A stretch of DNA of 64,000 nucleotides from Symbiodinium natans. Lineage: Eukaryota > Sar > Dinophyceae > Suessiales > Symbiodiniaceae. Shown here piece after piece: positions 1 to 13,348 of this stretch. The first letter of the stretch is position 1. The number at the start of each line of letters is the position of its first letter. A program made the position numbers and the translations under genes. The notes below the pieces were generated by a model. It saw only the letters and a list, made by a program, of their open reading frames with translations. It searched no databases and was not told the origin of the DNA. The DNA lies in NCBI GenBank assembly GCA_905221605.1, contig CAJNDS010002492.1, positions 62,001 through 126,000 on the forward strand, written 5' to 3'.

Positions 1-269
1 TCAACCGCTGTGTAGTTACCTTCCGGGATTGTTACTTTACGATAAGTAATACCTGCTATGACACCTGGAGGAATGACTTGATGCATCCAATAAATATTGT
101 TGTTTGTGCTGTTTATTGAATACCACGAGTGGGGAATGCTTACCTCATGTATTTGACATAACATGTTCTCATCTAACTGAACTGTTTCAGGTAAATCAAT
201 AGTAAATTCCGATGGTGTACCACTCACTTTATAACTGCTATCAATATAAACCTTTTTGAATTTGAGCAT
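1..269 (-). CDS. Penton/minor-capsid-like virion protein (5' part, runs off the window edge)
   Basis: Open from the ATG at 269 down to base 1 without a stop, so only the first 89 codons are seen. The protein starts MLKFKKVYIDSSYKVSG and has HEVSIPHSWYSIN near residue 50, then a RKVTIPEGNYTA segment. The pattern 'YIDS..R/K.SGT..eF.I.LP' followed by 'V.IPhSWYsI...NN.iYW' is what I associate with the minor capsid (penton-like) protein of polinton-like viruses; this is recognition by eye. It diverges from the lipase gene at 312 across a 42-base AT-rich spacer that presumably holds both promoters. It lies beside the capsid and fibre genes, which fits a structural role. It could instead be another virion-surface protein. 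Confidence 0.55.
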   Translation of the reverse strand, partial: MLKFKKVYIDSSYKVSGTPSEFTIDLPETVQLDENMLCQIHEVSIPHSWYSINSTNNNIYWMHQVIPPGVIAGITYRKVTIPEGNYTAV

Positions 270-311
270 TATAGTATTAATGAGATAAATTAATTTATAA
301 ACTATTTTATA

Positions 312-953
312 ATGCACAAACATAAGCGAAGAAATGAAGGTATTTTATATGAACCTCCTAAAGCAAGAAATAAATTACATAATGAAGTTAGAGATGAATT
401 AAATGAAAATGAAACATTTTTAACTGATACTCAAGGATTAAGACTTGCGTACGAAAACCCAGAAGGCATTTATCAAAATGGTAGCATTTTATACATTGCT
501 GGAACGAAAAGCGGGAGAGATGTATATGATGATTTAAAATTACCGTTTTATCAAACAAGAAACACGAAGAGATACAAAGACGTTGATAAATTTATTAAAG
601 ACGGAACTATAGAGGTTGATGGTAAGAAACTCACAGGTGTAACTGATATTATTAGTCATAGTTTAGGTTCAGCGGTAGGACAACAAATAAATAATGATTA
701 TGGTAATATTTTTAGAAGTAGGAGTTATGGTTCTCCTTTTGTTTCAGGACAACAACCAGATGAGACAGGGACAAATTTAAGAATACGAAAGGCTGGTGAT
801 GTCGTTAGTATGTTTGATAGAGGAAGCACAACATTAAATAGAGGAACATTAAACCCACTTGATAATCATAGTTATGCTGATATTGCTAATGTTCACAATA
901 AACCAGGCAACTTACCTATAACAACAGATGAGTTTATGCAACAATTTAATTAA
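312..953 (+). CDS. Class 3 lipase-like alpha/beta hydrolase
   Basis: A 213-residue protein with a serine-hydrolase layout. The nucleophile elbow is IISHSLGSAVG around residues 113-123, with Ser117 in the H-S-L-G context; the usual first Gly is Ser here. A likely catalytic Asp163 lies in KAGDVVSMFD and a likely His186 in NPLDNHSYAD, so the Ser-Asp-His order matches class 3 lipases. No signal peptide is visible. Lipase or phospholipase genes occur in several polinton-like viruses, where a role in membrane breach or host lipid use is usually supposed; that role is inference here. The start ATG follows an AT-rich stretch (ttttataATG) like the other viral genes. Confidence 0.7.
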   Translation: MHKHKRRNEGILYEPPKARNKLHNEVRDELNENETFLTDTQGLRLAYENPEGIYQNGSILYIAGTKSGRDVYDDLKLPFYQTRNTKRYKDVDKFIKDGTIEVDGKKLTGVTDIISHSLGSAVGQQINNDYGNIFRSRSYGSPFVSGQQPDETGTNLRIRKAGDVVSMFDRGSTTLNRGTLNPLDNHSYADIANVHNKPGNLPITTDEFMQQFN

Positions 954-972
954 TTTCTCAATAATATTAATA

Positions 973-1164
973 ATGTTTGCTTATAAATCTAGCACTTATG
1001 AAAAGTTAGAGAAACCAAAACCAGATAAAAAATTCAAACAGAACAGTTATGAAGAAATACGTAAACTTGTTGAAGATAATGAGGGGAATGACGTAGTGAA
1101 AGATATTAAGAATAAGAAGAAAAATAATAAAGAAATTTCATATAATTTCAAATTATTTGATTAA
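973..1164 (+). CDS. Small lysine-rich viral protein, unknown function
   Basis: 63 residues beginning MFAYKSSTYEKLEKPKPDK. Lysine makes up roughly a quarter of the residues and there is no hydrophobic segment or cysteine. The frame is open further upstream, from an ATG at 928, but that part overlaps the end of the lipase frame and reads as low-quality sequence. The ATG at 973, after an AT-rich leader, is preferred. The high charge suggests a nucleic-acid or scaffold-binding protein, but no family is recognised. Confidence 0.55.
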   Translation: MFAYKSSTYEKLEKPKPDKKFKQNSYEEIRKLVEDNEGNDVVKDIKNKKKNNKEISYNFKLFD

Positions 1165-1190
1165 ATATAATATTAACAATTATATTTAAT
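1160..1190. terminator. AT-rich palindrome after the small lysine-rich gene
   Basis: A perfect 11-base inverted repeat (attaaatataa / ttatatttaat) with a 9-base loop begins at the stop codon of the upstream gene and lies before the capsid gene. Similar palindromes follow the capsid gene and the gene ending at 5229. A transcript-end or RNA-processing role is inferred from position only. Confidence 0.45.
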
Positions 1191-1218
1191 TAAATTTCTA
1201 TTTATATTATATATACTT

Positions 1219-2652
1219 ATGGAATCGTTCAGCCCAGAGGATATCCTCATTGACAACCTGTCATTTAAATTAAACAAAGGTAGTTCATATATAACTGATA
1301 GAAGAAGTGTTACATTTTGGCCTTCTGGTTCAAATATCTATAAACCTACAAGTGGTAACCGTGTATTGAAATTTTCATTAAACGCTGAAGATAATGCTTG
1401 GTTAGACCCTCAATCAGTAAGAATTTTCTTTACACTACAAAATCTTGACGCTGGAGCATTTAATAACAAACTCCGTCCATTATCTCCTCCTTATAGCTTC
1501 TTCAGACGAATGAGAATTATTGCTGGTAATCAGGTTGTTGAAGACTTTGATAATTACAACCGAGTTCATCATATGTTCTCTAAAATGATGTCCCAAGGAG
1601 CACGAAAAGATGAATCAAATGAAGGGTTTGGTTATCGATATGATGACGAAATTAAAACTCTCGTTAATGACGGTGACACAAGACTAAAATATGAAGTTAA
1701 TGGTTTAACTTGTCAAGGCTTTAAGGATAAAATGATTGTTGGATTTAAACCATTATGTGGTTTATTCAGTCAGTTTAAATATTTACCTTTAAAGTATATG
1801 GGAAATTTAACAATTGAATTAGAATTGGTTACTAATGCTACTGATTGTGTAATTGACCCTACAGATGTTACAACGGCAGATGCTGTAGGAAATAGGTTTG
1901 TAACTGACGTTAATCCTGCCACAGAAGCAGACGCTGAATTTAGAAATACAAGCACTGATTGGGAAATTAATAATGCTCGTGTTGTTTGTGATGTTTGCAC
2001 CCTTGATAATAATTTAAATAATGAATACGTCAAACATCTTTTAGAAGGAAAGGGACTGCCCATTACTTATACAACTTATATTACACAATCTCAATCAATA
2101 AAAGGCACAACCGATATTAACGTCCAAGTCATCCGTTCAGTGTCTAAATTAGTAGCATCTTTCATTACATTTTACAAAGAAGGAGACCCAAGCACCGGCT
2201 ACGAATACTGTGACAAAGAATTTTGTCGTTTCTATCACCCACAACAACAATCAGATGAACAAACTGAAGGAATTTATGATAACAATTTTGATTTACAAAT
2301 GCAAATACAATTAGGTTCTAAACTATATGCCGAGTATCCGATTACATCACTTCAAGAATGCTATTATCACTTGAGAAAGGCATTAAATCTTCCAATGTTT
2401 CATCAACATTCAATGTCAATTGATTTTAGACAATATCGTGACCGTCAATTTGTGTTTGGGTTTTCATTTGAAAAAGTGCCTGATAGTTCATATACTGGAA
2501 TTAATACACGTGCTGGACAACAGATGTTAGTAAAAGTTAAACCAGCAAATGCTTCAATAACAACTACTGCTATGCCTGATAATATTTATATAACGTTACT
2601 GTCGGAACAAATATTAGAGATACGTGATTTAGGTTTGAAAGTTTTTGACTGA
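1219..2652 (+). CDS. MCP: Major capsid protein, double jelly-roll, polinton-like virus type
   Basis: A 477-residue protein that I recognise as a polinton-like virus major capsid protein. Diagnostic stretches are VTFWPSGSNIYKPTSGNRV (about 31-49), NAWLDPQSVRIFF (59-71) and the run SPPYSFFRRMRIIAGNQVVE (89-108) leading into DNYNRVHHMF (111-120). The length suits a double jelly-roll capsomer that builds an icosahedral shell. It lies between a lipase/penton-like group and the fibre gene, with the packaging ATPase downstream, so the main morphogenesis genes are together. The start ATG at 1219 follows a TA-rich leader. The frame is intact with no stops or shifts, so the copy is young, or the DNA is viral rather than anciently endogenised. 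Confidence 0.85.
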   Translation: MESFSPEDILIDNLSFKLNKGSSYITDRRSVTFWPSGSNIYKPTSGNRVLKFSLNAEDNAWLDPQSVRIFFTLQNLDAGAFNNKLRPLSPPYSFFRRMRIIAGNQVVEDFDNYNRVHHMFSKMMSQGARKDESNEGFGYRYDDEIKTLVNDGDTRLKYEVNGLTCQGFKDKMIVGFKPLCGLFSQFKYLPLKYMGNLTIELELVTNATDCVIDPTDVTTADAVGNRFVTDVNPATEADAEFRNTSTDWEINNARVVCDVCTLDNNLNNEYVKHLLEGKGLPITYTTYITQSQSIKGTTDINVQVIRSVSKLVASFITFYKEGDPSTGYEYCDKEFCRFYHPQQQSDEQTEGIYDNNFDLQMQIQLGSKLYAEYPITSLQECYYHLRKALNLPMFHQHSMSIDFRQYRDRQFVFGFSFEKVPDSSYTGINTRAGQQMLVKVKPANASITTTAMPDNIYITLLSEQILEIRDLGLKVFD

Positions 2653-2663
2653 TTTTAAGATAA

Positions 2664-2703
2664 TTAATATTAATAAAATTATTATCTATTTTATTAATAT
2701 TAA
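2664..2703. terminator. Perfect 16-base inverted repeat between capsid and fibre genes
   Basis: The arms at 2664-2679 and 2688-2703 (ttaatattaataaaat and its exact reverse complement) enclose an 8-base loop. It sits 11 bases after the capsid stop and ends 3 bases before the fibre ATG. It could end the capsid transcript, be part of the late fibre promoter, or both. Confidence 0.5.
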
Positions 2704-2706
2704 CTA

Positions 2707-5001
2707 ATGCCTTTGACACTCAATAACACAAACACATTAACAGCAGATAACATTGTAGTCAGTGGAACTAATTTAACAGACTTATACGCCACAAAAACAG
2801 AACTAAGCGACATAAACAACACAACAGAAGTAGCAACAAACACCGCCGACATAGCAGTTTTAAATACAAAACAATTACAAAATTTCAATAATATTAATGC
2901 AATTAATGATGATTTAACTAATAATTACCAAACTAACACGGCTCTAGCTACCAATTTTTACAACAAAACAGAGGTAGATGCTACATTTACTAACTATTAC
3001 ACATCAACACAAATAGACACAAACTTATCTACTAATTATCAAAACAACACATTATTAGCTACCAATTTTTATAATAAGGGCGAGGTAGATACGTTGATAG
3101 CAGGAGCTGGGGGTGGTGGAGGCTATACTGATACAGAAATTGATAATCTACTAGCGTTAAGAGTTCCATTAAGTGACTTTACTGATAGGTTCAAAACAAA
3201 CCCAGTTATTGATTGTAGTGCTCCTACTATTATTCATAGTGGATTAACATTAAATAACGAAACAATAAATATATCACCGACTACGGGATTATTATTTAGT
3301 AATCAAACAGGAGGAGGAGATAAAGTTATTAGTGTATTTAAAAATGCTACTAATTATCTAACTTTACAAGGAAATAAAATTATATCAAATGCTACATCTG
3401 ATGATAGTGTTGTAGATTTAGAATTAAATCCATCAGGAAATGTTAATATTACCAATGATTTATCAGTATCTAATTTAACAGCCAATGAAATCAGTTTAAC
3501 AAATAATATTAATATTGGTGGTAATATTGAATTAACAGACGCTAATACAAGTATAGAAAGGTACAATAACGCTACTAAATCAAATATATCAATGGATGTA
3601 AGAACAGACCAAGAGGCAGTGAGAGTAATGTTAGGTACATCAACAGATGCTAACACTAGTACTTATATAGAATGTAATAATGCAACAGGAGGAACTACAT
3701 TATTTAACCCAACTTATTTTAAAGACACTATAAATTATGAAAACGACACTTTAAATATTTCTAATAACTCAGGAATTACATTTTATAAAGATACCACGGA
3801 TGCCAGTAATGTTTTAACCGTAAAAAACGCACAAGGTTATATAAGATTTAACTCATTTAATATTAACGCGTATAATACAAGCAATGACTCATCGTCATTA
3901 CTTTTATTGAACACAGCAAACGGTAATGGCGTTTATTGTTTAAGTTTAGGCATTGGAGTCATTCAAGGTTCAAACAAACTAAATGTATCGGGAGGCAATG
4001 CTAATTTTGGAAGCACAGCATCTTTTCAAAGCACATCAACATTCAACGGCGATATTTATGTTAATAATTCAGGCAGAATATTTCAAAGAGCGGACGTTAA
4101 TAATTCATTAAATGTAATATCAACTAACGAAATTAATTTTTCATTACAATCAAATAGAACAACCGACCCTACAACAGGAACAATAGCGTTACAATTAAAC
4201 GACACTAACGGAATTACTATAAATAGAGCAGTCACAAATAATCAAACATTTAACAGCATTGGTAATATCGTTGGTGAAGCGGATGTTATTAGTTGGGGTC
4301 GCTTTATGTTTCAGAACAGTAGTGAATTAAAAGAAGTATTGGATACTCAATATAAGTTATATATCAGAAATGGTGATACATTAGGAGATATTAATTTAAC
4401 TGTTGGATTAGAATCATCAACGCCGGAAATTCAATTAACTGATGGTAAAGTTAAAATGAATAGTAATTTAGAAATAACACAAGAAACAATAATAGCAACA
4501 TACGAACAAATACAATTTTGTAATACAGATAGTGCAGGTGAGATGTTCTTTTATTTTGGTGATACAACAGCAGGGAATGAAGTATTGGAAATTACAGCAG
4601 GAGGTGTATATATTGACGGGACTTTTGCTTATTCGTCCGATTTTACATTAAAAGAAAATATTAAAGAAATTGATAGTAAAAAATGTTATGAAATAGTTAA
4701 ATATGTAAAACCAAAAACATTTAATTTTGCACATTTGAACGAAGAGAAAAATAAAGTTAATCATATTGGATATATTGCTCAGGATGTTGAGAGTGTAATT
4801 CCGCAAGAATGGGAAGGCATCATAACAACAGATAATAAAGGACACAAAAGATTAGATTATTGTAAAACAGCAGTAATAACACACGGAGCATTACAGCATT
4901 TGATTAAGGAAGTTGAAGATTTAAAGAAGGAGGTTAAGAAGTTGAAAGGCGAGGAGAGCCCGAAAGCGAAGGCGAAAGCAAAAGCCAAAACTAAGAATTA
5001 A
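2707..5001 (+). CDS. Fibre/spike protein with C-terminal intramolecular chaperone (peptidase S74)
   Basis: 764 residues, rich in Asn/Thr and beta-prone. Residues about 10-150 contain repeated blocks built around 'TNFYNKTEVD' and 'T.TEID.NL', a Gly-rich hinge (AGAGGGGGY) follows, then a long shaft of N/T-rich strands with recurring 'S.TSTF..DIYVNN' patches. From about residue 640 the C-terminus matches the peptidase S74 chaperone: SSDFTLKENI gives the expected Ser-Lys pair (Ser644, Lys649), followed by a GYIAQDVESVIPQEW region. In phage tail spikes this domain trimerises the fibre and then cuts itself off. A final coiled coil and a KAKAKAKAK tail follow. Inferred role: trimeric receptor-binding fibre, probably on capsid vertices. 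Confidence 0.8.
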   Translation: MPLTLNNTNTLTADNIVVSGTNLTDLYATKTELSDINNTTEVATNTADIAVLNTKQLQNFNNINAINDDLTNNYQTNTALATNFYNKTEVDATFTNYYTSTQIDTNLSTNYQNNTLLATNFYNKGEVDTLIAGAGGGGGYTDTEIDNLLALRVPLSDFTDRFKTNPVIDCSAPTIIHSGLTLNNETINISPTTGLLFSNQTGGGDKVISVFKNATNYLTLQGNKIISNATSDDSVVDLELNPSGNVNITNDLSVSNLTANEISLTNNINIGGNIELTDANTSIERYNNATKSNISMDVRTDQEAVRVMLGTSTDANTSTYIECNNATGGTTLFNPTYFKDTINYENDTLNISNNSGITFYKDTTDASNVLTVKNAQGYIRFNSFNINAYNTSNDSSSLLLLNTANGNGVYCLSLGIGVIQGSNKLNVSGGNANFGSTASFQSTSTFNGDIYVNNSGRIFQRADVNNSLNVISTNEINFSLQSNRTTDPTTGTIALQLNDTNGITINRAVTNNQTFNSIGNIVGEADVISWGRFMFQNSSELKEVLDTQYKLYIRNGDTLGDINLTVGLESSTPEIQLTDGKVKMNSNLEITQETIIATYEQIQFCNTDSAGEMFFYFGDTTAGNEVLEITAGGVYIDGTFAYSSDFTLKENIKEIDSKKCYEIVKYVKPKTFNFAHLNEEKNKVNHIGYIAQDVESVIPQEWEGIITTDNKGHKRLDYCKTAVITHGALQHLIKEVEDLKKEVKKLKGEESPKAKAKAKAKTKN

Positions 5002-5019
5002 ATTCTAAAATAATATATA

Positions 5020-5229
5020 ATGGGAGCTAAATCTTCTAAATCTTGTGTCAGTGAAAATATGAAACAAATAAAAGAATTAGATATTAATGAAAAAACTAAA
5101 ACAGACATATTATTATTCAATACTTTAAAAGATGTTATTGAAAGAGTTGAAAAGTTAGAAGAGAGGAAAAGCGACAAAATATATTATAAACTGCCACCTG
5201 TAACATTATGTAATTATTCAATCATTTGA
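5020..5229 (+). CDS. Small putatively acylated coiled-coil protein
   Basis: 69 residues starting MGAKSSKSCVSENMKQ. Gly2 followed by small and basic residues and a nearby Cys is a classic N-myristoylation (plus palmitoylation) signature. A heptad-like helix covers about 12-52. The gene begins 18 bases after the fibre stop and ends in an AT palindrome that also covers the convergent gene's stop. No family is recognised. Membrane tethering in the host is an inference from the N-terminus. Confidence 0.55.
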   Translation: MGAKSSKSCVSENMKQIKELDINEKTKTDILLFNTLKDVIERVEKLEERKSDKIYYKLPPVTLCNYSII

Positions 5230-5262
5230 TTAATAATATTATAGCTGAATAATATTATTAAT
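5229..5262. terminator. Palindrome between convergent viral genes
   Basis: A 12-13 base inverted repeat (ttaataatatta / taatattattaa) with an 8-base loop lies exactly between the plus-strand gene ending at 5229 and the minus-strand gene ending at 5258. A bidirectional terminator is the simplest reading. Confidence 0.5.
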
Positions 5263-5488
5263 TATCTTCTTCATTATTTTCATCTGATCTAGAACAAAAC
5301 AGTGATTCTCCTAAATAATATATTCCATAACCAACAGCCATTATTGGAACTATCACAGGCATAAACGGTGTTAAACAACAATTAATCAAACCTTCCTTTG
5401 TTAAACCATCACTTTCAATATGTCTAAGCATCGCTTTACCACACTCAACTATATACATCATTACACCGCATATTAATATTGTTTCCAT
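5258..5488 (-). CDS. Small viral membrane protein, unknown
   Basis: 76 residues with two hydrophobic segments: residues about 3-15 (TILICGVMMYIVE) and about 40-60 (PFMPVIVPIMAVGYGIYYLG). The tail is acidic (DENNEEDN) and there are several cysteines (C7, C16, C37, C38, C67). It is convergent with the 69-residue gene and is followed on the same strand, after 32 bases, by the ATPase gene upstream. A two-pass membrane or internal-membrane virion protein is plausible. No family assigned. Confidence 0.5.
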   Translation of the reverse strand: METILICGVMMYIVECGKAMLRHIESDGLTKEGLINCCLTPFMPVIVPIMAVGYGIYYLGESLFCSRSDENNEEDN

Positions 5489-5520
5489 TATTTAGTATTT
5501 AGGTTTTAATCTTTAAGCAT

Positions 5521-6312
5521 TTAATCAATAACTAATTTAGCATCAAAGCGTTTATAAAACATATCATTCACATCAGCCTTCATTAAGTTGATAAACAAGA
5601 AACTGTAAGGTTCTTCGGTAGCTAGATTATACACCTCTAATAATAATTTCTTCGCCTCTTGTAAGTTTTTAGTGTCTGCTACGGTAGATTTTTTAATTAA
5701 GACGGCGCTCAATTCCTCAACCATGGTTTCTATTTCTTTGTAGTTCCTTAACCTGAAGAAGAACAACTGACGACTATTGACACGAATAATTGGTGATAAA
5801 GCATTAAATTTTTGTGTGCTTGTTATAATATTGATTGCGTTATGTCTCCCGCGCACATACAACTGATTTAATAACGGGCTATTGCGCGAGAACGCTTTTG
5901 AATCAGCAAAGTCATCAACAATAATAAGTATTGAGTGTAATTTGTTGTGGTCGTTCTTTTTCTGATATTCTATTACCTTATGTTGTCTTTTTATAACTGC
6001 CTCCAGTTCTTCTGGTATATACTCGTCAAATAGGCACTTTTCTTTCTCTAAATCAACCTTTAAATTATCTTGGATGTATTTTTTAACTGGTGTCCAATTG
6101 CTATCAACTGAAATTGAAGGGGACCAAATGTATATTCTAGCAAAAACATCTCTGTAAATGTCTAGTATCATTGACTGCAATAATATACCTTTACCAGAAC
6201 CTGAGGGACCTGTTATTATTTGACTGAATGGTAGTCTCGGTGCTATTTCATACTTAGATTGTTTAAAATCATATTCTTTAACATTAACAGGTTTGACTAT
6301 AGGAGTAATCAT
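5521..6312 (-). CDS. Genome-packaging ATPase (FtsK-HerA/A32 type)
   Basis: 263 residues. Walker A is GPSGSGKG at 35-42. Walker B is ILIIVDDFAD at about 128-137, with Asp133/Asp134 in place to bind Mg and activate water. A sensor-like STQK follows at 165-168 and RGRH at 154-157 may supply an arginine finger. Size and spacing fit the A32-type packaging ATPases shared by polintons, virophages and large DNA viruses, which pump the genome into the capsid. It diverges from the 53-codon gene at 6329 across a 16-base spacer. The motifs and frame are intact, so the protein is potentially functional. Confidence 0.8.
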   Translation of the reverse strand: MITPIVKPVNVKEYDFKQSKYEIAPRLPFSQIITGPSGSGKGILLQSMILDIYRDVFARIYIWSPSISVDSNWTPVKKYIQDNLKVDLEKEKCLFDEYIPEELEAVIKRQHKVIEYQKKNDHNKLHSILIIVDDFADSKAFSRNSPLLNQLYVRGRHNAINIITSTQKFNALSPIIRVNSRQLFFFRLRNYKEIETMVEELSAVLIKKSTVADTKNLQEAKKLLLEVYNLATEEPYSFLFINLMKADVNDMFYKRFDAKLVID

Positions 6313-6328
6313 TATATAATATAATAAT

Positions 6329-6490
6329 ATGGATAAAATAAATTACAGCGATTATATTGATGTTATTGAGAACATTGAAGAAATACAAGAAAAAATAACG
6401 CCTCCCAAATATCGCAGGTGTTGTTACTCCTTCTTGGAAGTTTGCAAAATAATGCTTGAATACTTTAAATACAATCGCAAAAATAAATAA
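6329..6490 (+). CDS. 53-residue viral protein, unknown
   Basis: ATG at 6329, TAA at 6488-6490. The product begins MDKINYSDYIDVIENIEE (acidic amphipathic helix) and ends in a basic Cys-containing half (PPKYRRCCYSFLEVCK, then YFKYNRKNK). The A/T-rich leader and tight packing between neighbours (16 bases from the ATPase start, 14 bases before the next gene) support a real gene. No family recognised. Confidence 0.45.
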   Translation: MDKINYSDYIDVIENIEEIQEKITPPKYRRCCYSFLEVCKIMLEYFKYNRKNK

Positions 6491-6504
6491 TCTAACCTAG
6501 TTAA

Positions 6505-6867
6505 ATGACAGACAACGAACAAAAGGAAGGAGGCTTCCATTTGGATAAAGGCAACGTTGATTGCTTTCCTTGTAGGTGTAATAAGAAGACACTGCACAAG
6601 GAGACAAAAACAACAAAGGATGATGAAGGCAAAACGATAATCAAACAAACCGAAAATCGTACTTCATGGAGAGTCGGAAGCGGTTATCGCAACGCTACAC
6701 CTGATGGGAACGATATTTTTAAAACGAACATGAACGATAAAGAGGGTGTTGATACTGTTGATACAGGGTTTGGTTCACGAAAGGCTACCCCCGAAGAACG
6801 AATTGAAAAACTTGAAGCGGAAGTAAAAGAACTCAAGAAGTATCGTCAGTTAGAGCACATGGATTAA
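6505..6867 (+). CDS. 120-residue viral protein with Cys cluster and C-terminal coiled coil
   Basis: The N-terminal part has a CFPCRC cluster (C20, C23, C25). The middle holds two related short motifs, GYRNATPDG (about 60-68) and GSRKATPEE (about 80-88). The C-terminus, ERIEKLEAEVKELKKYRQLE, is a clear coiled coil. The repeat plus coiled coil suggests a self-associating virion or scaffold protein, but no known family is assigned. The start ATG follows 'ctagttaa' and the preceding gene's stop. Confidence 0.55.
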   Translation: MTDNEQKEGGFHLDKGNVDCFPCRCNKKTLHKETKTTKDDEGKTIIKQTENRTSWRVGSGYRNATPDGNDIFKTNMNDKEGVDTVDTGFGSRKATPEERIEKLEAEVKELKKYRQLEHMD

Positions 6868-7198
6868 AGTATTTAAAAATTTAAACCCATTATATATTTG
6901 ACAGAGTACAGTGAAACTATAGATTCTTGGTTTTTTATTTCCAAAAAAAAACCCAAGAATGTACAGTCCGCCCAGGCCGATTTCAACGAAGGAGAAGAAA
7001 CCCCCCATTGGCAAGTTCCCTTAATACCTACTGCATTATAGATGAACGAGAGAAAGGGAAGTAACTTGATACATCTATATAATTTGATACACATAAGATG
7101 TATCAGCTAATTAGTTTGTTTGCTCGTTAAAGCTTAAGGAATTTAATATTTCATAACATTTCGTTATGTTATGATATATTTTGTTAGCTAATTATATA
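6868..7198. other. Viral intergenic region with two hairpins and a possible 21-codon frame
   Basis: Holds a hairpin at 6923-6960 (attcttgg / ccaagaat arms extended by T/A runs) and a second at 7067-7105 (tgatacatct / agatgtatca, perfect 10-base arms). A small palindrome (cataacat..atgttatg) lies near 7151. A 21-codon frame at 6959-7024 starts MYSPPRPISTKEKK, but nothing else supports it. The region probably contains the end of the upstream gene and the promoter of the zinc-ribbon gene. Confidence 0.4.
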
Positions 7199-7396
7199 AT
7201 GCTTGTTGTATTTGGTGAAGTTAAAGAGGTCAAAGAACATCTCATTGAATGCAAGAGGTGCAAAAAGGAGTATCCGAGTAATAACTTTGTGATTGTCAGC
7301 AACAACAGTTATTCATCTAAATGTAAGAACTGCAGAGAGGACTTAAGAAAGGAAGGTGAGAGGAGGAAGATTCAGAAGATCTTGCGTCCGCGTTAA
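7199..7396 (+). CDS. Small zinc-ribbon protein
   Basis: 65 residues from the ATG at 7199; the frame is open further upstream only from a TTG, so ATG is preferred. Two CxxC pairs, C18-C21 (ECKRCKKEYP) and C42-C45 (KCKNCREDL), with 20 residues between them form a zinc ribbon. A basic helix follows (RKEGERRKIQKILRPR). Such small ribbons are common in phages and protist viruses and usually bind nucleic acid or RNA polymerase; the exact role here is unknown. Confidence 0.6.
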   Translation: MLVVFGEVKEVKEHLIECKRCKKEYPSNNFVIVSNNSYSSKCKNCREDLRKEGERRKIQKILRPR

Positions 7397-7429
7397 AACT
7401 TTTAAAACTTTTAATATAGGTTTGTATAT

Positions 7430-7720
7430 ATGAGTGATTGCTCGACAGAAATCAAAAGTCCTATCAAGAAATTAAAGGAAGAAGTTGCGGAAATAAAAGA
7501 TTTAGTTAATAGTCTCGTTGAAAGGGTTTTAAAGTTGGAAGGAAACAAAGAGAATATTAAACCTAGTGATAATAAACCTAATATTATGGATGCTAATTAT
7601 AATAATCGCAGGAGTGCCTATATAAGCAAACTTAATAATAAAGACATTAAACAACCCAAGGAAGAAACAATGAAATATTATAATGTTGTGTATGATGCTG
7701 ATAAGGATGTTTATTTTTGA
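7430..7720 (+). CDS. 96-residue coiled-coil viral protein
   Basis: Residues about 10-42 form a strong leucine/valine heptad coil (IKKLKEEVAEIKDLVNSLVE then RVLKLEG). A disordered N/K/P-rich linker follows, then a C-terminal tail YYNVVYDADKDVYF. No enzyme motif. The gene begins 33 bases after the zinc-ribbon stop. Likely an oligomeric accessory protein; no family assigned. Confidence 0.5.
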   Translation: MSDCSTEIKSPIKKLKEEVAEIKDLVNSLVERVLKLEGNKENIKPSDNKPNIMDANYNNRRSAYISKLNNKDIKQPKEETMKYYNVVYDADKDVYF

Positions 7721-7777
7721 ACCATTCAAGGAAGAAAGTATTTAAAGAAATGACGACTATATATATTAAGTGTGAAA

Positions 7778-8368
7778 ATGGGATTGTTTAAGTTAGAGGA
7801 GAATTGCTATGTGTGTAAATGTCATAGGATTAGAAAGGCAGTAGTCTTGAATTTGGTTTTTGATGCTAGTGTTGTTAATAATATTCTGCCTTATCTGAGT
7901 TGTTATAACTGTTCTAAAATGATGAAGTGCGAGTTAGAATATGAAAAGGAAGAATATAAAGAATATAATAGAGAGGCAAAGTTGTTTCATTTTATCTACA
8001 ATCATCTAGACACCAAATACAATAAACTAAAAACATTGAAGGATAAGAAAACCTATATGAAAGAGATAATCAGGTGTTCAGAAAGTGCTAAAAAAGGGAT
8101 GCTGGTAAAGTTTGTTAATGATACTTATTATTTGAAAGGATTTGATGAATACAAACAGTGGTTTTCTGAAGCATGTCCTACTAAGGGGTATTCTATTTTT
8201 GATGAATCTGACCTAGAAGATGAGTTCTTTTATTATAGAAATGATAGAATGCCTTTCTATGATGTTTTAAAAAATCTGTTCTATATATACATAAAACATC
8301 ATACTAGAGGATATAAAAAACACTTTGACAATATTGATGTTATAGCGTGGGTACTACGAATTTTTTAG
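7778..8368 (+). CDS. 196-residue viral protein with Cys pairs, unknown
   Basis: Starts at the ATG at 7778; an upstream in-frame GTG adds only two codons. The N-terminal third holds CYVCKC (C10, C13, C15) and CYNCSKMMKC (C42, C45, C51), consistent with a zinc-binding module. The rest is helical and charged with many aromatics (FHFIYNHLDTKYNKL, FYDVLKNLFYIYIKHH). It is the last viral gene before the host sequence. Function unknown; a DNA-binding or replication accessory role is possible. Confidence 0.5.
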   Translation: MGLFKLEENCYVCKCHRIRKAVVLNLVFDASVVNNILPYLSCYNCSKMMKCELEYEKEEYKEYNREAKLFHFIYNHLDTKYNKLKTLKDKKTYMKEIIRCSESAKKGMLVKFVNDTYYLKGFDEYKQWFSEACPTKGYSIFDESDLEDEFFYYRNDRMPFYDVLKNLFYIYIKHHTRGYKKHFDNIDVIAWVLRIF

Positions 8369-8494
8369 GTAAAGCAACCATAATATCATTCAATAAATAA
8401 TATTATCGTTGAAACCACAACTAACAGAATTTTGCATCATCCACTACCCAAGCCCTGAAACCCTAAATTTACCATAAATTCTATCAACCTGGCC
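8369..8494. other. Virus-host junction
   Basis: AT-rich viral sequence with a weak palindrome (ataatat..atattat near 8380-8406) gives way by about 8450 to host-like sequence holding a degenerate telomeric motif (ccctgaaaccctaaa, 8453-8467). No terminal inverted repeat or clear target duplication of the virus is visible on this side, and the other virus end lies outside the window. The exact joint cannot be placed better than 8,369-8,450. Confidence 0.5.
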
Positions 8495-8608
8495 ACGCCT
8501 GTTGGGAAGATGGTCTTTGGATATACCCTATTTGATTAGGCTTATTTGTTATAGGTGTAAAAGCGTAGGGGGGGGTATGGGTTTTGGGACCATCTTACCG
8601 ACAGGCGT
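8495..8608. mobile_element. Short inverted-repeat element (introner-like) next to the junction
   Basis: Arms of about 21 bases (acgcctgttgggaagatggtc at the left, its near-exact reverse complement ending at 8608; 2 mismatches) flank an AT-rich core with a G run. Size and structure match the other introner-like elements of the host part, so this stretch is host DNA. It lies in the last visible intron of the kinase gene. Confidence 0.5.
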
Positions 8609-8758
8609 CCCCTGTGCTAACTTTTTTCAGGTTGCTTACATTTATAAGGGAGTCCAGAAACCCCCCCCCCCCCCCCCCCCCCCCCCACCCTAAACCCTAA
8701 ACCCCCCCCCAAAAAAAAAACATGGGGTAAAGGGTACCACCATAGGCTACCAAGTCTC
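8609..8758. repeat. Poly(C) run and telomeric scraps in the last kinase intron
   Basis: Contains a C run of about 27 bases (from 8659), two CCCTAAA units, then C and A runs and the end of a CTTGG-type introner (gggtaccac..ctaccaag) adjoining exon 16. Confidence 0.6.
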
Positions 8759-11700
8759 TTTGATGCTGAAGTAGCACAAAGAGCCGTTGAAGGCAACCCA
8801 CATGTCGCGCTTCAGCCAATGCGTCGGGTCCTGTAGGGTTTAGGGTTTAGGGTTTAGGGGTTAGGGTTTAGGGTTTAGGGTTTAGGGTTTAGGGTTTAGG
8901 GTTTAGGGTTTAGGGTTTAGGGTTTAGGGTTTAGGGTTTAGGGTTTAGGGTTCCCGTCCGTGTTGCTACTTTTTATGTGCATGCACATAAAAAGTAGCAG
9001 CACACCTGTGCCTGCATATAAGAAAACTAGACCCAGGAGCAACCTAGGAATCAAAAGGGTGCCCTTTTTGGGTGTGGCGCGTAAGGGAACCCAAACCCCC
9101 AAAAAAAGGAATAAGGGCCTACTGTCGTCCGTGTTGCTACTTTTTATGTTCCTAAACCCTAAACCCTAAACCCTTTCTGCAACTGAACCCTAAACCCTAA
9201 ACCCTAAACCCTCAACCCTAAACCCTAAACCCAAACCCTAAACCCTACGCGTAGTCGGGTCCTGGGGGTTCCCATCCGTGTTGAGCTTCCACAGGGTGCC
9301 CTTGTAGAGGGGCGCTTTGCTGGAGGTGTCCTCGATCCGGTTTCGGGTGGTGCGGTCCACCTTCTCCTTGGCTTAGGGTTTAGGGTTTAGGGTTTAGGGT
9401 TTAGGGTTTAGGGTTTAGGGTTTAGGGTTTAGGGTTTAGGGTTTAGGGTTTAGGGTTTAGGGTTTAGGGTTTAGGGTTCCCCAATAAAAGTTTAACATTT
9501 GGGCACCCCTAATATGAAATTAGGGGAACCCATGTAAACTTATGAAGTGATAAAGTAGTAGCATTAAAAACTCTGAAGTCACAGCTAGTCTCATGCACCG
9601 GCAAGGGTGGGGCCTCTGACTGGGTGTGCTCCATCTGCTCCGTGGTCGAGTTCTGGGCAACCTTCTCCTTGTCCTGAGAGTAGCCCAGTAACCATAGTAT
9701 GATAAGGGTACCCTTTTTGGGTTGGTTACCCTAAACCCTAAACCCTAAACCCTAAACCCTAAACCCTCAACCCTAAACCCTAAACCGAAAAAAGGGTAAA
9801 GGGTACCACTGGGCTACCAAGTGTCAGACTCCAGGTAAGAATCTGAGAGGCACTGGGCCAGGGTCTTCCTCTTCGTGTGGTCACACACCTCGGCTGGCCC
9901 CCACCCTAAACCCTAAACCCTAAACCCTAAACCCTCTGAAACAAATCCTAAATAGGAGCCTCTTTATCCCACATAAAGGGGAACATATATACAGTATCCC
10001 AAGGGCCGTAACCATATTCTTTTTTGGGGTTTAGTTCCTTTATAAGGGAACCTTGAACCCCCCCCCCCCCCCAAAAAAAAAAAAAAAAAAGGAAAAGGGT
10101 ACCACTGGGCTACCAAGCTAGACACAAGGAGGGAGCCGATGAGCATCTGGTGGAAGGCCGGATCAAACCGCTCGATGCTCTTCGGGATGGGTGCCTTGGC
10201 GATGAACCCTAAACCCTAAACCCTGAAACCCTAAAACCCTGAACCCCTAAAACCCTAAAACCTTAAACCCTAAACCCTAAACCCTCGGAATGGGTGCCTT
10301 GGCGATGCTGCCGAGCCAGTCCATGAAGAGGAACCCCGCCTCTCGGTGGGAGTGCCCATTCCGCAGGAAGTTGGCCTGGGATGGCACGTTAAAGCCCTCT
10401 GAACAATGACTGGCTAGTTCTTAATCGGGAATGAGGTACCCTATATAATCCCTTAAAGGGTATATACAGGCCCTAATTCCCTCATTCCCTACGAAGAACC
10501 AGGGGGGATAATTCCTGAATATGATCCTCTTAAACCCAACAAGGGAAAAATGAAAAATGTCCCTTAAGTAGGGGATAGGATTAGGGGGACCCTTGGGGAT
10601 ATAGACCCTCTGAATAAGGTCCCTGTTTAAGAGAGCCAGAAGAGGGTTTAGAAGGGGTTCCCTTTTCAGGGTCCCCCTTATCCTACCTAGGATTAAGGGC
10701 CTACCGAGTGGCGTACATGGGCTTCAGCACGGCATCCAGGGTTGCCAACTCGCAAATGGTCATCCCGACGCTCCAGACATCCAGATGCGGGCGCACGGTG
10801 ATCTTCGACTCCGTCTCCTCAATCCTTGCTGCTGCTTAGAGTCGGGGATGGGGGGTGGGGGGTACCCTATGTAATCCCTTAAAGGGTATATAATATATAT
10901 ACCCTACGTAATCCCTTAAAGGGTATATATATATATATATAGGGCCCTATGTAATCCCTTAAAGGGTATATATATATGTATATATAGGGCCCTACTAAAA
11001 TTATCAGCAAGACGCAGGAACCGCGCCCACTCCGGCGCGCAGTAGCAGGGGGAGAAGGAGATCGAGGAGTCCTGTATGGAGACCTGATAGCCCCCATAGG
11101 AGCCATGATGATAAGGGAACCCCAGAAGCCATAAAAAGGGGTTTAGGGTTTAGGGTTTAGGGTTTAGGGTTTAGGGTGAGCCCAGAACCCACAAAAAAAG
11201 GGTAAGAGGGTACCACTCGGGGGTCAAGCCTGGCTCCCACAGGGCACGCAGCCATCCACGTCGATCAGCTTCAGCCGGCCACTGAACATCATCCTCGGAT
11301 GGAATTTAAAAAAAAGCCCTCTGACAAGAAAAATGAATGTATAAGATCCTCTTATAAACACCCAAAAAAAGCAAAATATTTATATTGGAATTTATATTAT
11401 GCCCTCTGAGAGAAATGAATATAAGATCCTCTTTTAAAGCCCAACAAAAAGGAACATAGAAGATGTCGCAGAAGCCCTACCGAGCATCAGGTTTTCGGGC
11501 TTCAGGTCCAAGTGCACCAGGTTTTTGGCATGCAGACCCGCCACAACAAGGATGATGGCCTTGCTGATGTTCTTCACTGCTCCCCTTGAGAGGCTCTTCC
11601 CTTGGTCCCTTCTGAGGGCCAGGTAGTCCTTGAGGCTATACCTTGGTAGCCCAGCAGCCATCTTACATTAAGGCTACCCCCTTTTTTGGGGTTGGCCACT

Positions 11701-13348
11701 TTAGAACACCCCCAAAAAGAGGGTAAAAGGGCACCAGTGGGCTCCCTAAACCCTAAACCCTAAACCCTAAACCCGAAACCCTAAACCCTAAACCCTAAAC
11801 CCTAAACCCTAAACCCCAAGGTACTGGGCCAACTCGGTGACCACGTACATCACGCCGTCGATGGGATCGGGTGCCGGGGTGCCACTCTGGTCCTTGCTGT
11901 AGTCCAGCCTCTACTGAACTTGGAACATTTGGAACATCTTGGAACCCTAGCGCAAAAACTATACCTTTAGCTGCTTCTTAGGAATTCAAGTACCACAAAT
12001 ATTAGAAACTATTTCCAAATGCAGTACCCCATTTAGCTGTTTCTTAAGAATTCAGGTTTCCAAATACCCCTAAGCTTAAAATTAAATAGCTGTTTCTTAG
12101 GAATTAGAGTGCCCCCCCCCCCCCCCCCCCCCAAAAAAAATATTTCCAAATGCCCCTAAAGCAGCAGGGACATGAAGAGCTTCGAGGGCTTCGTGGCTGC
12201 CAGCTGCGGGTGCCAGAGCGTCTCGTCGGACACTGTTTCAAACGGCTCCTCTGCGAATTGCTTATGAGAACCCCCCCCCCCCCCCCCCAAAAAAAAAAAA
12301 AAAAAAACACAAAAAAACACACATATATCTATATATATATATACACACTTCCTTATAAGGGCAATATCGGATAATATAGGGAGTATTCTTTTGCTTATTT
12401 AGGTAGGGGGGGGGCCCTTTTTGAGCAAACAGAAGGTCCTGCAGCATCTTCAGCACGCTGATTTGCCTGCGGAACTTTTGGAGTCGCACGTCCTCGCCCT
12501 TGTGGGTCTCTTTCCTTTTTCTGAACTTGGAAGCCTAGCAAGAAAAAATATATTATAGGAGCTGTTTCTTAGGAATTAGAGCACCTAAACATTAAAAACA
12601 AAAACATTCCCAAGTTGCCCTAAGTTTCAACGATCCTCTTAAACCCCAAGAAGGGAAAACGGAAAACAGAACATGTCCCAAAATCGCCTACCGAGTTTCA
12701 AGGCCTTGTAGACTTTGATGGCCACTTCGGTGCCGGTCTCCATGCACACGCCTTTCCTGCAGATGGAAGAGGTGCCCTCGCCCATCAGGTCCTGCTTGGT
12801 CATGCTCATCTTGTACTTTCCTGGGATGGCTTGGGGTTTAGGGTTTAGGGTGTAGGGTTTAGGGTTTAAGGTTTAGGGTTGAGGGTTCAGGGTTTAGCGG
12901 CCCTTCAAGCCATCTGAAAAAATATTCCACTGGATGTGCTCCTCTTAAACCCAATAAGGGAACCTACAAAAAAATGTCCCACAGGGCCGACCGAGTTTCC
13001 CATGACAATGGGTGAGCCATCGCTGCTCACCTTCCGCTCCGCTGTCTTCAAGCTCGCGGAGGGCTGCGACAGAGGAGACGCCTCTGAGTGATGCACCTTA
13101 GGTTTAGGGTTTAGGGTTTAGGGTTTTAGGGTTTAGGGTTTTAGGGTTTAGGGTTTAGGGTTTAGGAGGATTGCCCAGTACCCTGGCTTTAAAAATTGAT
13201 AAACTTTTCTCTTAGTGGGGGGTTTAGTATGCCCAAAAAGCTAAAAAGTCCACCGATTGGGCTCCTAAGGCACAGGCTCGATGGACTTGCTGGATTCCAT
13301 CGCCGCAGGCTGTACCGGATTGGACACGACGCCCTGTGCGCAGCCCAT
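8759..13348 (-). CDS. Membrane-anchored protein kinase with C-terminal PH domain (16 exons seen, 3' end missing)
   Basis: Joining 16 exons gives 486 in-frame codons. The N-terminus MGCAQGVVSNP is a myristoylation/palmitoylation signature. Kinase domain about 57-395: Gly-loop GEGTSSICRKG (71-81), VAIK with Lys93, alpha-C helix KFRRQISVLKML where the usual Glu is Gln117, hinge MYVVTEL (181-187), catalytic loop HLDLKPEN with Asp234, a DFG variant IDVDG (250-254), CAPEW (276-280) and DVWSVGMTICEL. From about 447 a PH domain begins (LYKGTLWKL, then HWLKRDMWVAFNGSLCYF) but stops at codon 486, before its last strands and helix. The next exon should follow a GA donor at 8758 but is absent; viral DNA starts about 300 bases on. 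Predicted Ser/Thr kinase at membranes; substrate unknown. Confidence 0.75.
8831..9261. repeat. Kinase intron 15: telomeric arrays, 36-bp palindrome and 11-base flanking duplication
   Basis: Contains a TTTAGGG array (8833-8952), a perfect 36-base palindrome (8964-8999), an introner-like body and a CCCTAAA array (9150-9247). The coding sequence gtcgggtcctg is present at both ends (8823-8833 and 9254-9264). GA..AG splicing inside these copies restores the PH-domain frame. Confidence 0.65.
9372..9582. repeat. Kinase intron 14: TTTAGGG array plus unique AT-rich stretch
   Basis: About 15 TTTAGGG units (9374-9478) abut the exon 15 acceptor; the rest (9479-9582) resembles the body of an introner (tttgggcacccct..aggggaaccc). 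Confidence 0.55.
9674..9825. mobile_element. CTTGG-family introner with array, kinase intron 13
   Basis: Minus strand: target GACA + CTTGGTAGCCCAGTGGTACCC...GGGCTACTCTCAG + GACA; donor GA. An array (9728-9786) sits in the core. Confidence 0.7.
9889..10125. mobile_element. CTTGG-family introner with array, kinase intron 12
   Basis: Minus strand: target GTGT + CTAGCTTGGTAGCCCAGT...CAGCCGAG + GTGT; donor GT. Contains a C/A homopolymer pair and a CCCTAAA array (9903-9936). Confidence 0.65.
10182..10307. repeat. Telomeric array flanked by a 23-base direct duplication, kinase intron 11
   Basis: A degenerate CCCTAAA array (10205-10284) is bracketed by copies of tcggratgggtgccttggcgatg at 10182-10204 and 10285-10307 that differ at one base. 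Both copies are coding sequence. Splicing from GC in one copy to AG in the other (minus strand CCAAG|GCACCC) removes array plus one copy and restores the kinase frame. Confidence 0.8.
10376..10712. mobile_element. CTCGG-family introner, kinase intron 10
   Basis: Minus strand: target GCCA + CTCGGTAGGCCC...CCATCCCAG + GCCA; donor GC. At 337 bases it is longer than most copies and contains a second inverted-repeat unit (aatcccttaaagggtatata, 10447-10500). The join gives codons for MYANF in the kinase domain. Confidence 0.65.
10835..11013. repeat. Kinase intron 9: repeated 'aatcccttaaagggtata' palindromes
   Basis: Three tandem copies of a palindromic unit (ccctaygtaatcccttaaagggtatata) alternate with TATATA tracts between 10861 and 10990. 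Each unit is a near-perfect inverted repeat around cccttaaaggg. Confidence 0.6.
11294..11488. mobile_element. CTCGG-family introner, kinase intron 7
   Basis: Minus strand: target GATG + CTCGGTAGGGC...CCATCCGAG + GATG. Donor GA, acceptor AG. Splicing restores the KPENLM-M codons of the catalytic loop exactly. The core repeats 'gccctctga..gatcctctt' twice, suggesting an internal duplication. Confidence 0.7.
11642..11824. mobile_element. CTTGG-family introner with telomeric array, kinase intron 6
   Basis: Minus strand: target GTAC + CTTGGGG, about ten TTTAGGG units, then a body ending GGGCTACCAAG + GTAT. Donor GT; target copies differ by one base. The array replaces the usual GTAGCCCAGT start. 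Confidence 0.65.
11909..12165. mobile_element. Introner forming kinase intron 5 (CTTTAGGGGC family)
   Basis: Minus strand: target GCTG + CTTTAGGGGCATTTGGAA...TTCAGTAGAG + GCTG; donor GC. The core carries the motif 'agctgtttcttaggaatt' three times, so it is an internally duplicated or nested copy, and it includes a C run (12111-12132). Confidence 0.65.
12261..12426. repeat. Kinase intron 4: poly(C)/poly(A) and TA-rich filler
   Basis: Holds a C run (12271-12288) directly followed by an A run of about 19 bases, a TATATA stretch and another short C/G run near 12402. No clean introner ends were found. Confidence 0.5.
12521..12699. mobile_element. Introner(s) in kinase intron 3
   Basis: Begins GAAACTCGGTAGGC (CTCGG family) and ends in a second family whose plus-strand start is ctgaacttggaagcctagc with the motif gctgtttcttaggaatta. 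Two elements appear joined, so the acceptor has no matching duplication of the donor's GAAA. Confidence 0.55.
12821..12999. mobile_element. Introner forming kinase intron 2, interrupted by a telomeric array
   Basis: Minus strand: target GAAA, then CTCGGTCGGCC...GAAGGGCC, then a telomeric block, then ATCCCAG and the second GAAA. Splicing GA..AG restores 'ATGG|GAAAG'. The 3' end AAGGGCCATCC(C/T)AG of this family is split by the array (12834-12897), so the array entered an existing introner. Confidence 0.7.
13097..13273. mobile_element. Introner forming kinase intron 1 (CTTAG..CTAAG ends)
   Basis: On the minus strand the intron is target GTGC + CTTAGGAGCCC...CTAAG, followed by the second GTGC of exon 2: donor GT, acceptor AG, 4-base duplication. 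A TTTAGGG array (about 13099-13165 on the plus strand) occupies the element's 3' part. Confidence 0.7.

Follow-up and report, generated by a model that had tools for sequence, protein, structure and literature searches.

In the dinoflagellate Symbiodinium natans, introns of a kinase gene and of a second gene, both located on one 64,000-nucleotide stretch of DNA (the window; positions are counted from its first letter unless another locus is named), are very probably introners that insert with a 4-bp duplication without regard to the target, are filtered by splicing for orientation and for a G(T/C/A) target, and derive their donor from that target. The window and the genome supply the observations behind this reading: duplications, restored codons, empty paralogous sites, a one-sided excess of G, and one orientation in two genes. 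In the mechanism that we propose, short non-autonomous elements with terminal inverted repeats (TIRs) would insert with a 4-bp target-site duplication (TSD), largely blind to the target letters, and an exonic copy would be spliced out and survive when its orientation gives a working 3′ acceptor and, in addition, the duplicated target starts with G and has T, C, or A as its second letter. The upstream TSD copy would then serve as the 5′ splice site and the last AG of the element as the 3′ splice site, such that excision of the element plus one TSD copy would restore the codons, and the mixture of GT, GC, and GA donors would reflect the second base of the target after a filter that rejects GG.

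The kinase gene is encoded on the minus strand of contig C2180 (759-Mb assembly); translation starts at 13,348, and the protein begins MGCAQG. Of its 17 introns, 15 are in the window (13,348 to 8,831), and two are located beyond the gene part of the window and were taken from locus L071. Junctions were positioned by protein and paralogue comparison, and the joined exons encode 570 amino acids that align without gaps at all 17 junctions with P0001, a transcript-derived MMETSP protein from a relative (88% identity), and with P0002 (93% identity). Alignment with the S. natans protein PHKG2 (P0003) shows 96% identity from residue 57 onward and is gap-free at the junctions that it covers (15 in full and the second junction at its edge). 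All 15 window introns have the form G...AG, with GT donors in three, GC donors in five, and GA donors in seven.

At the ends of 11 of these 15 introns, a sequence of 4 bp or more is exactly duplicated (4 bp in nine introns, longer in two). The 4-bp class (minus strand, as for all introns of both genes) comprises GTGC at the GT-AG intron 1 (13097..13273; element CTTAGG...CCTAAG), GAAA at the GA-AG introns 2 (12821..12999; starting with CTCGGTCGG) and 3 (12515..12699; starting with CTCGGTAGG), GCTG at the GC-AG intron 5 (11909..12165), GATG at the GA-AG intron 7 (11294..11488) and GCCA at the GC-AG intron 10 (10376..10712), both starting with CTCGGTAGG, GTGT at the GT-AG intron 12 (9889..10125) and GACA at the GA-AG intron 13 (9674..9825), both of the CTTGGTAG family, and GAGA at the GA-AG intron 14 (9367..9592). 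The two longer duplications flank telomeric repeats: in the GC-AG intron 11 (10195..10297) a TTTAGGG array lies between near-perfect direct repeats of ∼22 bp, within which 18 bp are exact and which fall outside the 4-bp class, and the GA-AG intron 15 (8831..9261), with its telomeric arrays, has the 11-bp repeat CAGGACCCGAC. Near-exact duplications occur at two introns, the GA-AG intron 4 (12249..12438; GACC/GAGC) and the GT-AG intron 6 (11642..11824; GTAC/GTAT), a member of the CTTGGTAG family with a telomeric array within its 5′ terminal repeat, and no clear TSD was found at two of the 15 window introns examined, the GC-AG introns 8 (11084..11229) and 9 (10825..11015). Intron 16, whose 5′ part in the sense of the gene occupies 1..8758, has CTTGGTAG-type ends and the TSD GAGA. 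When the downstream copies were shuffled among the same introns (20,000 shuffles), the mean number of exact matches was 0.94 and the maximum 7, compared with the 11 of 15 observed; at the sequence level, the duplicated targets of the kinase gene are confirmed as real. The first-pass annotation, made from this DNA alone, had counted duplications at 10 of the 15 introns, and the pattern that it described holds: the targets that it listed are all found, although GTAC/GTAT is only near-exact, introns 3 (GAAA) and 14 (GAGA) had been overlooked, and the count of exact cases becomes 11.

A paralogue on contig C1391, read by eye, continues through the sites of introns 2, 3, 4, 5, 12, 13, 14, and 16 with a single copy of the target (next to the site of intron 3 it has an intron of its own, a few bases upstream), and a paralogue on contig C2040 is uninterrupted at the site of intron 10. 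Conversely, C1391 carries introns at the positions of kinase introns 6, 11, and 15. Among the 17 intron sites, 12 could thus be judged (nine empty and three shared), with introns 1, 7, 8, 9, and 17 outside this judgement. C1391 carries exon pieces of P0003, including the residues at which the gene in the window differs, and because of these matched residues we read it as the gene of P0003 itself, so that the kinase gene in the window is a paralogue of that gene; in a genome search with P0003, the best-scoring exons (near 90% identity) were on C2180, not on C1391. These comparisons bear on a different history, in which the introns are old spliceosomal ones, the repeats at their edges arose through slippage or from convergent exon edges, and transposon-like ends were inserted later. 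The introns that C1391 has at positions 6, 11, and 15 would fit such a history, and because they are common to the paralogue, these three may either be older or represent repeat hits. As a general account it is nevertheless most unlikely, given the nine sites that are uninterrupted in paralogues and the 4-bp repeats that stand beside element ends in 9 of the 15 kinase introns, in all six elements of the second gene, and in 20 of 40 genomic copies. The nine sites without an insertion support instead the reading in which the donor comes from the duplicated target.

In the second gene (54,969-56,946, minus strand), all six elements examined are flanked by exact 4-bp duplications, five of which begin with G: GCAA (56728..56830), GCTT (56492..56604), GCAC (55822..56023), GAGA (55511..55672), and GAAG (55335..55462). 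The sixth TSD is AGGA (56164..56273), where a cut AG|GA within the repeat would serve, and a GA donor and an AG acceptor can both sit in the TSD. The elements at 56492, 56164, 55822, and 55335 belong to the CTTGGTAG family. When the six elements are removed, each with one TSD copy, the remaining sequence reads as one uninterrupted frame of 298 codons (open at the chosen end), and the best five of its 15 matches, to Symbiodinium and environmental proteins, cover 96-99% of its length; a further intron may lie below 55,245. The AGGA case would represent a second route to splicing; kinase introns 11 and 15 likewise use AG|G, within a longer duplication. That the donor comes from the duplicated target and the AG from the element, with the codons restored, had been claimed in the first-pass annotation, and both the gap-free splicing of the kinase gene and the joining of the second gene into one frame agree with it; its interpretation as a whole is partly supported, with two of its further claims taken up below.

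To describe the CTTGGTAG family beyond these genes, the strict pattern CTTGGTAGCCCAGT(60-90)ACTGGGCTACCAAG was searched in the genome, with 292 copies as the result, and 40 copies with 200-bp flanks (the first 40 among 50 matches listed of the 292) were sampled. The sampled copies are 95-116 bp long, within the 88-118 bp that the pattern permitted, and have the 14-bp TIRs that it demanded; the terminal repeats are internally asymmetric, such that a B end (..CAGTGGTACCC) can be told from an A end (..CAGTAACCATA). Exact 4-bp TSDs flank 20 of the 40 copies, compared with 0.73 after shuffling, and the other 20 are without an exact TSD; by position, the two flanks agree in 28, 31, 35, and 27 copies within the four bases and in 4-12 copies outside them. 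The family thereby shows what is expected of introners, namely, many genomic copies of which some are introns (nine in two genes), a target duplication of fixed length beside TIRs, and, judging from the two genes and the empty paralogue sites, what appears to be a splice site taken from the target with the frame restored. It also has the features of a miniature inverted-repeat transposable element (MITE), as the 40 sampled copies are short, non-coding, and TIR-bounded, with a constant TSD. An agnostic scan of 264 kb for CT...AG inverted repeats gave a weak signal: of 7,427 candidates, 379 were kept, mostly unrelated repeats, and 7 of these had exact 4-bp matches, compared with 1.6 after shuffling. 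The pattern for a second family (CTCGGTAGGC) had 52 matches (34 G, 18 T), with nearly as many (36) in the reversed control. An apparent GC content of 15-18% in two sampled regions was discarded as an artefact from unreadable letters.

The letters of the target differ between copies in genes and copies at large. Read in the intron orientation, the first letter of an exact TSD is G in 16 of 17 genic cases (the exception being AGGA) and in 5 of 20 genomic cases (p = 3e-5), where the 17 genic TSDs (11 from the kinase gene, of which two are at introns 16 and 17, and six from the second gene) span several families and the 20 genomic TSDs come from one family, with some copies possibly in genes. Within the CTTGGTAG family alone, the corresponding figures are 7 of 8 genic and 5 of 20 genomic (p = 0.004). 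GNNN therefore looks like the product of a splicing filter, and the G looks like a property of the copies that turned into introns rather than of insertion. The expectation of the first-pass annotation that copies across the genome would have matching GNNN flanks is borne out as regards the matching; the letters, however, are NNNN.

Because the two ends of the element can be distinguished, the base at position -4 can be compared between them over the whole genome. A G precedes the B (donor-side) end in 956 of 2867 copies and the A end in 258 of 1380 (33.3% versus 18.7%; odds ratio 2.18, p = 4e-24), the end patterns compared being slightly different in length (16 versus 17 fixed letters). The two bases at positions -4 and -3 of the 2867 B ends are GT in 424, GA or GC in 441, GG in 91, and others in 1911. 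Over the A-end background, the estimated excess is 266 for GT, 137 for GC, 115 for GA, and -1 for GG, figures that carry sampling error because the split between GA and GC and the second base at the A end were taken from 100 matches listed of the 441 and of the 258, respectively. With the A end as background, we estimate that ∼517 of the 2867 copies are in a spliceable context. The same comparison weighs on the idea that the transposase itself favors GNNN targets, which would require no splicing filter and would yield the G-first targets seen in all 15 window introns and in the genic TSDs; an element with symmetric TIRs, however, would be expected to show such a preference at both ends, and the one-sided excess, together with the mere quarter of genomic exact TSDs that are G-first, renders this very unlikely. 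If the splicing filter is the correct explanation, comparing both ends within a transposon family serves as an internal control, and the genome sequence by itself is enough to reveal donor tolerance, with GT tolerated about as well as GC, followed by GA, and GG not at all.

Orientation is equally restricted. The B end is at the donor in all nine genic copies of the CTTGGTAG family (p = 0.004; two genes), that is, in kinase introns 6, 12, 13, 16, and 17 and in the elements at 55335, 55822, 56164, and 56492 of the second gene; five of these were typed by script and the remaining four (kinase introns 6, 12, 13, and 16) by eye, with the B end alone recognizable in intron 12, and the count is confined to these two genes, as the gene strand is not known in the sampled regions. 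It had been claimed that, the ends being mutually inverted, the element would offer a usable acceptor whichever way it inserted; the nine copies in the same orientation and the G signature at one end genome-wide contradict this. Over the last 40 nt, pyrimidines make up 50% in the intron orientation and 35% in the reverse orientation (n = 40), and a pyrimidine-richer 3′ end is a possible reason for the fixed orientation. We infer that insertion is driven by a transposase, that selection acts as the filter, and that a signal on the acceptor side fixes the orientation. It is likely, in our estimation, that insertion ignores the target sequence and that the decision falls to the spliceosome alone, which accepts any second base but G and a single orientation despite the identical terminal repeats.

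A changed 5′ end of U1 was considered as the cause of the non-GT donors and dropped. U1 genes are found in at least eleven places above the Rfam cut-off, and the one copy read, on locus L075, retains ACUUACCUG near its 5′ end; judging from this copy, an altered U1 end would not explain the tolerance of GC and GA, and the donor preferences above would be those of a species whose examined U1 copy carries ACUUACCUG. On L075, genes for U1, U4, U5, U6, 5S rRNA, and SRP RNA are clustered within 3.2 kb, and on contig C479 neighboring U1 copies repeat about every 3.8 kb.

Telomeric arrays are present in 9 of the 15 kinase introns and in none of the kinase exons, and they total 6.9 kb of the window, where they were noted between 8,400 and 64,000. 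Interstitial (TTTAGGG)n arrays are very common: 430 arrays cover 26.5 kb of 200 kb (13%; 13.6 kb reads N) in 20 sampled regions (L009-L028), a figure that is biased because the contigs of these regions were picked from a list of telomere hits, and a stricter count gives 7.7% of the 20.4 kb around 40 introners (L029-L068) and none in 5.7 kb of paralogue. In the literature searched by title and abstract, we found no description of abundant interstitial telomeric arrays in Symbiodinium. Some introner copies are interrupted by an array in their interior or in a terminal repeat (C91:620466-620560, C160:197891-197994, and intron 6 of the window), for which reason the arrays seem to be later arrivals than the introner. 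Around some arrays there are direct repeats of ∼22-24 bp with AG|G, as if inserted at staggered breaks (L010:8918-8959, L020:3167-3196, and window 10195-10297), and a further inverted-repeat family with CTTGGAGGTTCATG ends, flanked by TA instead of 4 bp, was noticed at L012:4532-4673 and 5040-5153.

For introns 11 and 15, these arrays raise the possibility of a separate origin, in which telomeric repeats were captured at a staggered break, the filled ends became the 22-bp and 11-bp duplications, and AG|G inside the duplications supplied both splice sites. Both introns indeed have a telomeric array between long direct repeats, each with AG|G; similar flanks occur elsewhere (e.g., the repeat at L010 8918-8959 is a perfect 24-bp one); flank matches of at least 8 bp were found for 28 of 465 isolated arrays, compared with 10.6 expected; and insertion of such repeats during break repair is reported for primates and rodents (PMC7215372). 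The majority of the arrays, however, have no repeat at their flanks, and telomere-like sequence accounts for several of the longest flank matches. In addition, the C1391 paralogue has introns at both positions, and an older intron may therefore have been rebuilt, which weakens the case for introns 11 and 15 as certain new gains. We keep telomere capture as a tentative possibility for these two introns.

The CTTGGTAG-type ends of intron 16 are ∼22 kb apart, the far end lying outside the window, in L071. Window positions 1-8,400 (31% GC) are part of this ∼22-kb intron (L070, L071), inside which is an AT-rich element with inverted ends of its own. Among its open reading frames, one encodes an ATPase (Pox_A32, E 5.6e-10) and another a protein whose end matches Peptidase_S74 (E 6.1e-12); these suggest that a polinton-like virus has inserted into an introner. 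A 477-amino-acid frame of the insert had zero Pfam matches; that it encodes a capsid protein is a guess.

Together, these results would link the non-GT donors of dinoflagellates to the sequences at which a transposon family inserts, offer a way to measure which donors the spliceosome accepts, and define limits on intron gain, namely, orientation and the first two bases of the target.

How does the S. natans system compare with introners elsewhere? Huff et al. reportedly found in 2016 that the introners of Micromonas and Aureococcus are DNA transposons with TSDs and TIRs, a type to which those of S. natans also conform. Those of Aureococcus differ from ours in that their splice motifs are canonical and their repeat lengths constant, as cited in PMC7789003. 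In Amoebophrya, according to the same article (Farhat et al. 2021, PMC7789003), the introns made by introner elements have at their ends both inverted repeats and 3-5-nt direct repeats, and their donors are non-canonical; in these respects, direct and inverted repeats and donors alike, S. natans is similar. Splice motifs in Amoebophrya are described there as far more varied, and U1 as not detected; in S. natans, unlike this, all 15 window introns are G...AG and U1 is present, with ACUUACCUG in the examined copy. Introners have also been connected with intron gain in Polarella and other dinoflagellates (Roy et al. 2023, Curr Biol, as cited in PMC11453091), and introner-driven gain in S. natans is of the same kind, to the extent that the citing paper conveys it.

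The closest system is that of Symbiodinium microadriaticum, for which the legend of Fig. 2B in Gozashti et al. (2022, PMC9860276) gives introners with a 4-bp TSD, TIRs, a 3′ splice site of their own, and a 5′ splice site from the TSD; the same article reports GC and GA donors per introner family. The link from target to donor, which the first-pass annotation had put forward as its own central observation, is therefore already published for that species. Orientation dependence or GG exclusion was not found in the introner literature searched, of which Roy et al. 2023 was not a part, and we claim no priority for either. As far as the sections of Gozashti et al. allow a comparison, the two species have in common the 4-bp TSD, the TIRs, the 3′ splice site carried by the element, the 5′ splice site derived from the TSD, and the GC and GA donors, whereas the present analysis concerns another species and a specific local gene and presents a one-sided excess of G, the exclusion of GG, a single orientation, and empty paralogous sites.
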